The translations under genes were made by a program, and so were the position numbers. Positions 33,225 through 36,754 of a stretch of DNA of 64,000 nucleotides are shown piece after piece. This DNA comes from Silvimonas iriomotensis. GTDB taxonomy: Bacteria > Pseudomonadota > Gammaproteobacteria > Burkholderiales > Chitinibacteraceae. The number at the start of each line of letters is the position of its first letter. The stretch's first letter is position 1. The notes beneath the pieces are model-generated. The model was not told the DNA's origin and did no database searches. It worked only from the letters and a program-made list of their open reading frames with translations. The stretch spans positions 682,001-746,000 of the forward strand of contig NZ_BMLX01000002.1 in assembly GCF_014645535.1 (NCBI RefSeq). The letters are read 5' to 3'.

Positions 33225-34634
33225 ATGCAATACATCTCCACACGCGGCGGCATGTCGCCCAAGAAATTCTCTGAAATCCTGCTGGGCGGCCTCGCGCCGG
33301 ACGGCGGCCTGGTGGTGCCGGACCAATACCCCACCCTGTCCGCCGATGACCTCAAGGCACTGGCAGGCAAGTCTTATACCGATCTGGCCTTCGCCATCAT
33401 CAGCCGTTTTGTTGACGATATCCCGGCGGCAGACCTCAAAGCCCTGATCGACAAGACCTACACCAAAGCCGCCTTCGGCACGGATGAAATCACCCCGCTG
33501 ACGCGCCTGGAAGACGACCTCTTCATCCAGCAACTGTCCAACGGCCCGACCCTTGCCTTCAAGGACATGGCCATGCAGCTTTTGGGCAATCTGTTTGAAT
33601 ACGTGCTTAACCGCGCCGGCGAGGAAATCAACATTGTCGGCGCCACCAGCGGCGACACCGGCAGCGCGGCAGAATACGCCATGCGTGGCAAGAAAGGCGT
33701 GCGCGTGTTCATGCTCTCGCCCTACGGCAAGATGAGCCCCTTCCAGCGCGCGCAGATGTTCACGCTGCAAGACGAGAACATCTTCAATATCTCGGTCAAC
33801 AACATGTTCGACGCTTGCCAGGACATGGTCAAAGCCGTCAACAACGACGCCGCGTTCAAGGCCAGGTACAAGATCGGCGCCGTGAACTCGATCAACTGGG
33901 GCCGCGTGGTTGCCCAGGTGGTGTACTACTTCAAGGGCTACTTTGCCGTCGCCAAAGAAGTGGGCGAACCGGTGGACTTCTGCGTACCGTCGGGCAACTT
34001 CGGCAATATCTGCGCCGCCCACGTGGCACGCCAGATGGGCCTGCCGATCCGCAACCTCGTCGTCGCCACCAACGAAAACGACGTGCTGGACGAGTTCTTC
34101 AAGACTGGCGGCTATCACCCGCGCGGCCTGGATCAGACTTACGAGACCTCCAGCCCGTCCATGGACATCACCAAGGCATCCAACCTGGAACGCTTTGTGT
34201 TCGACCTGACCGGCCGTGACGGCGCAAAGCTGGCCGCGCTGTGGCACACCGTGGAAAAAGCCAAAGGCTTTGACCTCTCTGCCGAGGACTTTGCCCGCAT
34301 GCGGGGCGAATACGGTTTCCGTTCGGATCGCAGCACCCACGCCGACCGCATCAACAGCATCCGTGAAGTCTTCAACAAATACGGCGTGCAGATCGACCCG
34401 CACACTGCCGACGGCTACCACGCCGCCAAGGCGCACCGTCAGGCCGGCGTGAAAATGGTCATCATGGAAACCGCCCTGCCCGCCAAGTTTGAAGCCACCA
34501 TGCAAGAAGCACTGGGCAGCAAACCCGCCATGCCCGCCGCCGTAGCCGACCTGGAAAAGCTGCCGCAACGCTTTGACGTGATGGACGCCGACGTGCAGAC
34601 GCTGAAAGACTACGTGGCTGCCCGCGCCGGTTGA
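33225..34634 (+). CDS. thrC: Threonine synthase
   Basis: 469 residues from ATG 33225, with the standard start MQYISTRGGMSPKKFSEILL. The PLP lysine is K113 in NGPTLAFKDMAMQ. The phosphate-binding block is ATSGDTGSAAEYAM, and PSGNFGNICAAHVA follows. It turns O-phosphohomoserine into threonine, the end product of the hom branch. The kinase gene thrB is not in this operon. A strong terminator follows. Confidence 0.97.
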   Translation: MQYISTRGGMSPKKFSEILLGGLAPDGGLVVPDQYPTLSADDLKALAGKSYTDLAFAIISRFVDDIPAADLKALIDKTYTKAAFGTDEITPLTRLEDDLFIQQLSNGPTLAFKDMAMQLLGNLFEYVLNRAGEEINIVGATSGDTGSAAEYAMRGKKGVRVFMLSPYGKMSPFQRAQMFTLQDENIFNISVNNMFDACQDMVKAVNNDAAFKARYKIGAVNSINWGRVVAQVVYYFKGYFAVAKEVGEPVDFCVPSGNFGNICAAHVARQMGLPIRNLVVATNENDVLDEFFKTGGYHPRGLDQTYETSSPSMDITKASNLERFVFDLTGRDGAKLAALWHTVEKAKGFDLSAEDFARMRGEYGFRSDRSTHADRINSIREVFNKYGVQIDPHTADGYHAAKAHRQAGVKMVIMETALPAKFEATMQEALGSKPAMPAAVADLEKLPQRFDVMDADVQTLKDYVAARAG

Positions 34635-34655
34635 TCCATAACGCGACACACCCAT

Positions 34656-34685
34656 AAAAATGGCCCGTCTTTTCGGGCCATTTTT
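34656..34685. terminator. Terminator after thrC
   Basis: AAAAATGGCCCG, a 6-nt loop, CGGGCCATTTTT. It also separates thrC from the CRISPR leader. Confidence 0.92.
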
Positions 34686-34689
34686 ATTG

Positions 34690-34841
34690 CCCCCTACCCC
34701 TTCATTTTGACTTCGTTTTTAAAGATAAAATAAAAATCATTTAAAAACAGTGCCTTACGCCTCCACCCCAAAAATGAACCCAACTTGCATGAAATCAGGG
34801 CAAATACCTGATCTGGCAGGATATATTGGTCACGCTTTTCA
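34690..34841 (+). promoter_or_regulatory. Probable CRISPR leader
   Basis: 152 bp between the thrC terminator and the first repeat. It is AT-rich around 34705-34770 and has no gene. It is called the leader because the repeats at this end are intact while the far end is degenerate. A promoter for the array is expected here, but I could not fix one. Confidence 0.6.
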
Positions 34842-35588
34842 GTTCACCGCCGTGCAGGCGGTTTAGAAGCGTCCGCACACCCAGGTAAGCCGCGCCAAGG
34901 TGTTCACCGCCGTGCAGGCGGTTTAGAAGAATGGCTGGAAATCGCCGCAGCTCTTGGGCCAGTTCACCGCCGTGCAGGCGGTTTAGAAGACACTTTGGCG
35001 CCAGTCGGGCGCACGTCCAGGGTTCACCGCCGTGCAGGCGGTTTAGAAGAAGAAGAGTTTTCGCGCCGGCGGCGCTGCCGTGTTCACCGCCGTGCAGGCG
35101 GTTTAGAAGGCGCTGATGCTGGACCGGCTGCGGGAAGAGACGTTCACCGCCGTGCAGGCGGTTTAGAAGAGATCGACCAGCTGGCCACCGCTGCCCAGGC
35201 AGTTCACCGCCGTGCAGGCGGTTTAGAAGAGCGCCCGATCTAGGCGGCGCTGGCCAAACTTGTTCACCGCCGTGCAGGTGGTTTAGAAGCGGTGGACAAT
35301 CAAGAAAACCTGGCGCTGGGCGTTCACCGCCGTGCAGGCGGTTTAGAAGACCATGGCTTCACCGACCGCAGCGGCGTTTTCGTTCACCGCCGTGCAGGCG
35401 GTTTAGAAGGGGACCGACTTTTCTGGGTGGGCCACGCCAACGTTCACCGCCGTGCAGGCGGTTTAGAAGCAAACCGGCAGGGACACCACATCGCAACCGA
35501 GGTTCACCGCCGTGCAGGCGGTTTAGAAGATCTCGTTGCGCAGCTCGCGCATCGCAGCGCTATTCACCGCCGTGCAGGCGGTATGCCA
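34842..35588 (+). CRISPR. CRISPR array, subtype I-F-like repeat, 13 repeats and 12 spacers
   Basis: Repeats of 28 bp recur every 60 bp from 34842 to 35562, with 12 spacers of 32 bp. The repeat starts GTTCACCGCC, has a GTGCA loop, and ends GGCGGTTTAGAAG; the arms ACCGCC and GGCGGT form the hairpin expected for Cas6f. Subtype I-F repeats have the same frame (GTTCAC, stem, TTAGAAG-like end). Repeat 8 has one C-to-T change at 35279. The last copy (from 35562) starts with A and lacks the TTAGAAG end, which marks the trailer. No cas gene lies within the window on either side: thrC precedes it and a sugar ABC ATPase gene follows. Confidence 0.97.
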
Positions 35589-35604
35589 GTTTGCTTCTGC
35601 CAAC

Positions 35605-35632
35605 AAAAAACCCGCCTCACGGCGGGTTTTTC
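35605..35632. terminator. Terminator between the CRISPR array and the sugar ABC operon
   Basis: AAAAAACCCGCC, TCAC loop, GGCGGGTTTTT. It ends the minus-strand ABC operon and could also stop transcription from the array. Confidence 0.92.
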
Positions 35633-35653
35633 TTTTGCGGTGAACGTCTGCGA

Positions 35654-36754
35654 TCAGCAGGTGCGCTTGAATGCGGCGCCTTGTTCGTTGAACACCAGGG
35701 TGTCCTTTTCCGGGAAGACGAGGCGAACGGAGGCGCCGCGCTTGAGTTCCGGATGGTTGCCTGGCAGTTTCACGCACAGGATTTCGTTCACGCCGGCCAC
35801 TTCAACATAGGCCAGCACGATGTCGCCCAGGTGCTCGATCAGATCGATACGGGCCGGCACGCCTTCTTCGCCTTCCAGCTTCAGTTGAACGTGTTCCGGA
35901 CGGATACCCAGGGTTACCTTGTCGCCCACGCGGCCTGCGTTGGCGTCAACTGCAGCGCGTACGGTAATGCCCTTGGGCAGACGCACCACGGCGGCTTGCG
36001 CTTCCACGCTGACCAGTTGTGCTTCGAGCAGGTTCATCTTGGGCGAGCCCAGGAAGCCGGCCACAAAGAGGTTGGACGGGTGCTCGTACAGTTCCAGCGG
36101 GGAACCGACTTGCTGGATCACGCCGGCGTTCAGCACGACGATACGATCAGCCAGGGTCATGGCTTCAACCTGATCGTGCGTCACGTAGATCATGGTGGTC
36201 TTCAGATCGTTGTGCAGCTTGGAGAGCTCCACACGCATGTTCAGACGCAACGCGGCATCCAGGTTGGACAGCGGTTCGTCGAACAGGAACACTTCCGGCT
36301 CACGCACGATGGCGCGGCCGATGGCCACACGCTGACGCTGACCGCCCGACAGGGCTTTGGGCTTGCGCTCCAGCAGATGGGTGATCTGCAGGATGTTGGC
36401 GGCGCGCTGCACGCGACGGTCGATGTCTTCTTTGGATTCGCCCGACAGCTTGAGCGAGAACGCCATGTTGTCGTACACGCTCATGTGCGGGTACAGGGCG
36501 TAAGACTGGAACACCATGGCGATACCGCGCTTGGAGGCGTGGATGTCGTTGGCGATGGTGTCGCCGATCATGAGATCGCCCGAGGTGATGTCTTCCAGGC
36601 CGGCAATCATGCGCAGCAGGGTGGATTTGCCGCAGCCGGACGGGCCCACGAATACGACGAATTCGCCGTTCTTGATCTCAAGGTCTACCCCTTTGATCAC
36701 TTGTACGTCTTTGCCGTAGGTCTTCTTGATATCTTTGAGCGTAACCGAAGCCAT
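35654..36754 (-). CDS. Sugar ABC transporter ATP-binding protein (MalK/UgpC/MsmK type)
   Basis: 366 residues. Walker [14 protein letters not shown] (about 38-50), Q-loop [14 protein letters not shown], signature [14 protein letters not shown] and Walker [16 protein letters not shown] are all intact. A C-terminal OB-fold regulatory domain (about 240-366, with GIRPEHVQL) is of the MalK/UgpC kind. It powers the two permeases encoded upstream. ATPases of this class can serve several sugar importers. It is the last gene of the five-gene minus-strand operon. Confidence 0.93.

Follow-up and report, generated by a model that had tools for sequence, protein, structure and literature searches.

The CRISPR array found between thrC and a sugar-ABC operon of Silvimonas iriomotensis is an orphan array of subtype I-F and most likely a recent relic. 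Probably, it represents what is left of an I-F locus that resided at this very place, that has recently lost its cas genes and that is now inert. This reading is supported by the finding that the signature Cas families searched for have no match in the genome, by a cas operon that another genus of the family carries between the same two genes, by a mini-array at that locus in Silvimonas terrae, and by a common leader core. The relevant features are collected in Table 1, with positions counted in the window, i.e. the whole stretch of 64,000 nucleotides that was analysed. G001, G002 and G006 denote the genomes of a sister species, of S. terrae and of the related genus, respectively.

Table 1. 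Features of the thrC-ABC locus of S. iriomotensis, with positions in the window
Feature	Position	Strand	Description
thrC, threonine synthase	33225..34634	+	TIGR00260, above cut-off
Leader, thrC to first repeat	34690..34841	+	AT-rich by reading; alignable with the S. terrae (G002) leader and with that of the cas-bearing G006
23-nt leader core	34770..34792	+	5 differences to G002, 6 to G006
CRISPR array	34842..35589	+	13 repeats of 28 nt, 12 spacers of 32 nt; Rfam CRISPR-DR4
Repeat 8	35262..35289	+	single substitution C18T, stem retained through a G-U pair
Spacer 10	35410..35441	+	target: C5 cytosine methylase gene on a 44-kb IMG/VR viral contig; 30/32 identical, mismatches at 18 and 30
Spacer 11	35470..35501	+	target: Rep gene of a G001 filamentous prophage; 30/32 identical, mismatches at 12 and 21
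Repeat 13, degenerate terminal repeat	35562..35589	+	5/28 positions changed; leader-distal end
MalK/UgpC-type sugar ABC ATPase, convergent	35654..36754	-	NF008653, above cut-off

A repeat scan bore out the thirteen repeats and the 28/32-bp geometry given in the preliminary description, which had placed the start of the array correctly and its end one base short (at 35588). The period of the array is strictly 60 nt, and all twelve spacers have the same length. There are no differences among repeats 1-7 and 9-12 (n = 11), and all five changes in the terminal repeat lie outside the folded stem. When the genome was scanned with the repeat as a pattern, allowing for up to 3 mismatches, 12 forward places were found, all of them in the array, against 0 for the reversed pattern used as a control, which argues that the array is not a product of chance. 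The same scan, which covered arrays with this repeat, revealed no second one. Considering the position of the terminal repeat beside the ABC gene and of the AT-rich leader beside thrC, the array is presumably read on the + strand, following the general layout of CRISPR loci. Both flanks are housekeeping genes, thrC on one side and the ATPase gene of the sugar-ABC operon on the other; the profile matches of Table 1 confirm the identity that had been assigned to them. A promoter scan of positions 34600-35700 yielded 0 sigma-70-like sites, which is no argument against transcription. The terminators of thrC and of the ABC gene, visible by eye, are absent from the output of that scan.

The earlier assignment of an I-F-like repeat with a Cas6f-type hairpin is supported both by the Rfam comparison and by the predicted fold. 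The Rfam family RF01317 (CRISPR-DR4), which we take to stand for type I-F repeats, is matched with 37.9 bits against a gathering score of 35 by 11 of the repeats; repeat 8 scores below the gathering value and the terminal repeat is absent from the listing. Upon folding (z = -3.36), the repeat gives a stem of 6 bp closed by a loop of 5 nt. The array thus presents the characteristics of its class: a 28-nt repeat of the CRISPR-DR4 class with a Cas6f-type hairpin, 32-nt spacers and a 60-nt period. The repeats that lie beside the I-F cas genes of G041, G018, G030, G025, G054 and G056 have the form of this class as well. Within type I-F, the array falls into a divergent group whose repeats read GTTYRCCGCCG...AGGCGGYTTAGAAG.

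The preliminary description had put forward two readings of the array, namely an orphaned state and use in trans by a cas operon elsewhere, and had proposed a search of the genome for cas genes. The outcome of that search supports the orphaned state. HMM searches (threshold E <= 0.001) of the genome (15 contigs with 4.59 Mb in total, 99.97% complete, although a plasmid may have escaped assembly) gave no match to Cas6f (positive in 10 of the 100 searched genomes and in the E. coli control), Cas1 (9 of 14 controls positive), Cas3f (4 of 14 controls positive, 1 above cut-off) or Cas7f (E. coli control positive). The genome-wide set consisted of these four families. The window, which had been described as free of cas genes, indeed gave no match in a tblastn search with the seven Cas reading frames of G006 (E <= 1e-4). 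These reading frames revealed no cas remnant in the window or in the locus stretch of S. terrae; the lost operon itself was thus not observed, which speaks against the reading of a relic. With Cas6f, Cas1, Cas3f and Cas7f unmatched, a complete type I-F CRISPR-Cas system was not found, nor was there a match in the genome to the effector genes cas6f and cas7f that would characterize an I-F3 CRISPR-associated transposon. Considering the four unmatched signature families and the lack of a window match to the G006 reading frames, use in trans by a resident cas operon is not supported. The case of an I-F cas operon that lies beside an array with a clearly different repeat, which had been raised as an indication of a dead remnant, does not arise since no cas operon was found in the genome.

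A cas operon is present at the same locus in G006, where the interval between thrC and the ABC gene amounts to ~14 kb. The order of the genes is thrC, three other genes (as read from the ORF list), cas2-3, cas8f, cas5f, cas7f, cas6f and cas1f, followed by 45 repeats and the gene of the ABC ATPase. In the comparison with NCBIfam, the curated cut-off is exceeded by Cas1f and Cas7f of this operon but not by its Cas3f, Cas8f, Cas5f and Cas6f, which makes it a divergent I-F operon. The G006 repeat differs from that of S. iriomotensis at 3 of the 28 positions, and the two share the loop and the inner five stem pairs. The outer pair, A-U in S. iriomotensis, is G-C in G006, and thus the hairpin has been preserved by a double change. 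Relatives of the operon with similar repeats were identified in G313 and G089, and G097 has a related operon as well, with no array found by pattern in the stretch examined. The cas2-3 gene of G006 is divided over two frames (L020:3697-6863), one holding the Cas2 part and the start of the nuclease and the other the helicase, which reflects either a broken gene or an assembly error; considering this split, the G006 system may itself be inactive. An I-F cas3 match in two pieces was also observed in G030 (C1:777336-780402), with the break at profile position 686/687. The three genes between thrC and the cas genes of G006 (L020:701-3621), which by reading encode an outer-membrane-like protein and two transporter-like proteins, are missing from the Silvimonas loci seen.

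A comparison across the family places the array in a wider setting. At up to 3 mismatches the repeat occurs in 3 of the 43 family genomes, namely those of S. iriomotensis, S. terrae and G006. A search of the GTDB r220 collection (from which the genome of S. iriomotensis itself was possibly left out) for the exact repeat turned up a single stretch, which belongs to S. terrae DSM 18233 (NZ_JACHHN010000003.1). There, an intact repeat, a single spacer and a degenerate terminal repeat lie between the same two genes; the repeat is identical to that of S. iriomotensis and the spacer is not shared. HMM searches of the S. terrae genome for Cas6f, Cas3f and Cas7f, the three families searched in it, gave no match. 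Judged by thrC and the ABC gene, S. terrae is the nearest of the three congeners compared. The other two, G001 and G003, have no repeat, and their aligned ends of thrC and the ABC gene are separated by ~109 and ~160 bases. In a tblastn comparison of thrC stretches from 20 family genomes (of the 42 besides S. iriomotensis), 17 likewise show the convergent ABC gene; among the 16 thrC-ABC intervals that were scanned for repeats (G006 apart), the one of S. terrae is the sole interval with any. The array marks a lineage-specific I-F locus at the thrC-ABC site, as seen at a sampling of one genome per species in which variation between strains is invisible. A single family thus holds a same-locus series that runs from cas genes with a long array (G006) via a 12-spacer orphan and a one-spacer remnant (S. 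terrae) to an empty site (G001 and G003), and such a series lets the loss of CRISPR-Cas be dated through the decay of the repeats.

The near-identity of the repeats had been taken as a sign that the array is still maintained, which is a weak step. CRISPR repeats are copied from one another during acquisition, the new ones from the repeat at the leader end. Repeat identity within an array therefore dates its growth and provides weak evidence of present use. At the 4-fold sites of thrC and the ABC gene, S. iriomotensis and S. terrae are 27% different (0.334 corrected, 434 sites). The 336 sites of 12 repeats show 1 change, against ~56 expected had they drifted ever since S. terrae split off; the 95% upper bound of repeat change is 1.4% per site. 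Hence either both the growth and the orphaning of the array are recent, or the array is still constrained, and the single change mainly argues for the former. The comparison between the species adds to this. Under drift, the chance that a 28-nt repeat would have stayed unchanged between S. iriomotensis and S. terrae is ~1.5e-4, which implies that the repeat was under constraint in the two lineages during most of the period after they separated. This identity would be explained by two separate recent losses of the cas genes or by continued use in trans, with selection or gene conversion as further possible causes.

Continued use in trans would involve Cas proteins that derive from a plasmid, a phage or a missed locus, with selection holding the repeats identical. 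The identity of the repeat in two species that are so different at their 4-fold sites favours it, as does the fact that 12 of the 13 repeats are intact or nearly so, with hairpin and handle present. However, separate recent losses in two lineages give the same identity, the leader core has drifted or been replaced, and the Cas families searched for are unmatched in S. iriomotensis (four) and in S. terrae (three). We therefore regard use in trans as improbable, and as the least improbable of the alternatives.

The leader deserves separate attention. The leader cores of S. terrae and G006 differ at 1 of 23 sites, and that of S. iriomotensis is farther from S. terrae, the closest relative compared, than S. 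terrae is from a member of another genus. Judged from this alignment, the leader of the S. iriomotensis array has either drifted or been replaced. The pattern (5 of 23 differences to S. terrae against 1 of 23 between S. terrae and G006) fits poorly with a simple descent that is combined with a very recent loss. Descent of the locus also comes with certain requirements: considering that G001 and G003 have no array, the whole locus must have been lost in both, and considering the lack of repeat drift, the cas genes must have been lost recently and separately in S. iriomotensis and S. terrae, not once in their ancestor. The array might instead have come alone, by recombination from another species, and never have stood beside cas genes in the Silvimonas lineage. 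Such an arrival is in line with the absence of the array from two of four congeners and with the distances between the leader cores, but the place of insertion beside the end of the ABC gene is the same in S. terrae and in the cas-bearing G006, and the one other GTDB r220 genome with the exact repeat is that of S. terrae. We consider a lone arrival slightly less probable still than use in trans.

A lower probability again, and a small one, is given to the view that the array serves as a standing immune memory, which is under selection without a resident Cas machinery and is called upon when a mobile cas operon of the divergent I-F variant reaches the cell. If true, such a memory would explain why an identical repeat is found at the same place in two sister species without detectable cas genes.

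A CRISPR array is a record of earlier meetings with phages, and here that record is well preserved. The array as it stands was compared with 399 genomes and the two best candidates per genome were scored, a procedure by which weaker targets and self-targets could be missed. Spacer 11 has its protospacer at two places in G001, the sister species (E = 2.9e-6 per genome), immediately preceded by CC. According to PMC12174588, CC is the I-F PAM, and spacer 11 thus has a protospacer with the 5'-CC that this implies. The target is a replication gene (Rep_trans), and the prophage also carries a morphogenesis gene of the pI/Zot type. Even when up to 9 mismatches were allowed, the site was found only in the prophage copies of G001. 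Relatives of the prophage Rep are present in G001, G002 and G003 and absent from S. iriomotensis, which is a single case; no relatives of the Rep protein were found in IMG/VR. The two filamentous prophage copies of G001 (L082 and L083:5436-12129) have nearly the same gene set. In the family as a whole, Rep relatives were seen in 10 of the 43 genomes, with three or more copies in G003.

The second target, that of spacer 10, emerged from a scan of IMG/VR with seed patterns for 7 of the 12 spacers (1, 2, 5, 6, 8, 9 and 10). Among the 76 stretches retrieved, that of spacer 10 agrees beyond the seed at 13 of 15 bases, and the runner-up at 9 of 15. The CC at this site was part of the search pattern and hence constitutes no independent evidence of a PAM; the gene that holds the site is, moreover, a member of a conserved family. 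Every sixth position is presumably not read by the I-F complex. Both differences of spacer 10 (18 and 30) and one of those of spacer 11 (12) are located at such positions. As the seed favoured these positions, the agreement is to be taken as a lead and not as a test. In the other 299 of the 300 genomes searched, spacer 10 has no match at up to 3 mismatches, and within the S. iriomotensis genome the sole match of spacers 10 and 11 at that level is the array itself.

For the other ten spacers no target was accepted, and six weak matches of spacers 5, 8 and 12 (5-7 mismatches) were taken as chance. Three of the six have CC in front, namely two of spacer 12 and one of spacer 8 (6 mismatches), and these could represent distant targets or chance. 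The two sites of spacer 12 are located on L075 (G362; 6 mismatches) and L077 (G334; 5 mismatches), and pieces of this spacer match several genomes of one genus. A blastn comparison of the array with 50,697 phage records returned 30 records at E <= 10 and, judged by the listing, no credible spacer target; the best rows were four overlapping pieces of one 38-bp stretch (E 0.2). With 72,556 plasmid records, 76 were returned at E <= 10 and no credible target was present among the 40 listed, of which the two best look like repeat-driven matches to other arrays.

In PMC8616872 and PMC12814883, orphan I-F arrays of E. coli are described as targeting I-F cas genes. An array of this type would be retained because its spacers destroy incoming I-F cas operons. 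The architecture of a small I-F orphan array at a fixed chromosomal place is indeed the same, with a precedent in PMC8616872, and Cas6f, Cas3f and Cas7f are unmatched in all four Silvimonas genomes examined. The spacers themselves argue otherwise. Neither the 12 spacers nor the S. terrae spacer has a match at up to 8 mismatches in 11 stretches with I-F cas genes, not all of which are complete operons (at least that of G089 is cut within cas2-3, and that of G025 has masked bases). Since the lost operon may have diverged, the six-frame peptides of the spacers were also compared with four loci of the divergent group, with four shuffles per spacer. The best score, 35 for spacer 12, equals the highest of the 52 shuffled controls, where spacer 11 reaches 48 on its prophage; spacer 12 and the S. 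terrae spacer (33) each score above their own four shuffles. No spacer was thus found to match I-F cas genes in either comparison, which lowers the anti-cas reading and does not close it, considering that the stretches tested exclude the operon that was actually lost. With two spacers directed at phage or viral targets in addition, it is the least probable of the readings considered here.

The reading that we prefer remains that of a relic of an I-F locus with recently lost cas genes. A type I-F CRISPR-Cas system would once have resided between thrC and the sugar-ABC operon in Silvimonas and the related genus, and this ancestral system would have acquired 32-nt pieces of phage DNA adjoining CC. 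If transcribed from the leader, the array would yield crRNAs of ~60 nt, with Cas6f cutting after the 3' side of the hairpin to leave a TTTAGAAG 5' handle, if the cut site is that of known I-F systems. The cas operon would have been lost afterwards, recently relative to the split from S. terrae. We infer vertical descent of the locus, loss of the cas genes by deletion, the timing of that loss, and the transcription and present inertness of the array. The array would then constitute an inert record, barring the arrival of a compatible I-F cas operon, as nothing that was found in the sequenced genome could process or use its transcripts.

Orphan arrays are of an already known kind, and the present one is an ordinary leftover that represents no new system. 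In the literature searched, no paper combines Silvimonas with CRISPR, and the one that combines Chitinibacteraceae with CRISPR is, by title, on another subject. Among the known loci, the I-F locus of G006 (L020) shares the place between thrC and the ABC gene, the loop and the inner five stem pairs, with 25 of 28 repeat positions and 17 of 23 positions of the leader core identical. It differs by the possession of cas2-3 (in two frames), cas8f, cas5f, cas7f, cas6f, cas1f and 45 repeats, whereas the window is without any of these genes. The mini-array of S. terrae has the repeat, the locus and the degenerate terminal repeat in common with the S. iriomotensis array and likewise lacks a Cas6f, Cas3f or Cas7f match, but it holds one, unshared spacer and its leader core is closer to that of G006. 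The orphan I-F array CRISPR4 of E. coli (Almendros et al. 2016, as described in PMC8616872 and PMC12814883) is likewise a small I-F array at a fixed chromosomal place, the cas genes of which were lost in most lineages and are present in relatives, as is the case here. According to the same sources, however, the spacers of CRISPR4 mostly target cas genes, whereas 0 of the 12 spacers of S. iriomotensis match the I-F cas genes tested, one matches a prophage and one a viral contig. The two targets known for this orphan I-F array thus lie in a prophage and in a virus rather than in cas genes.
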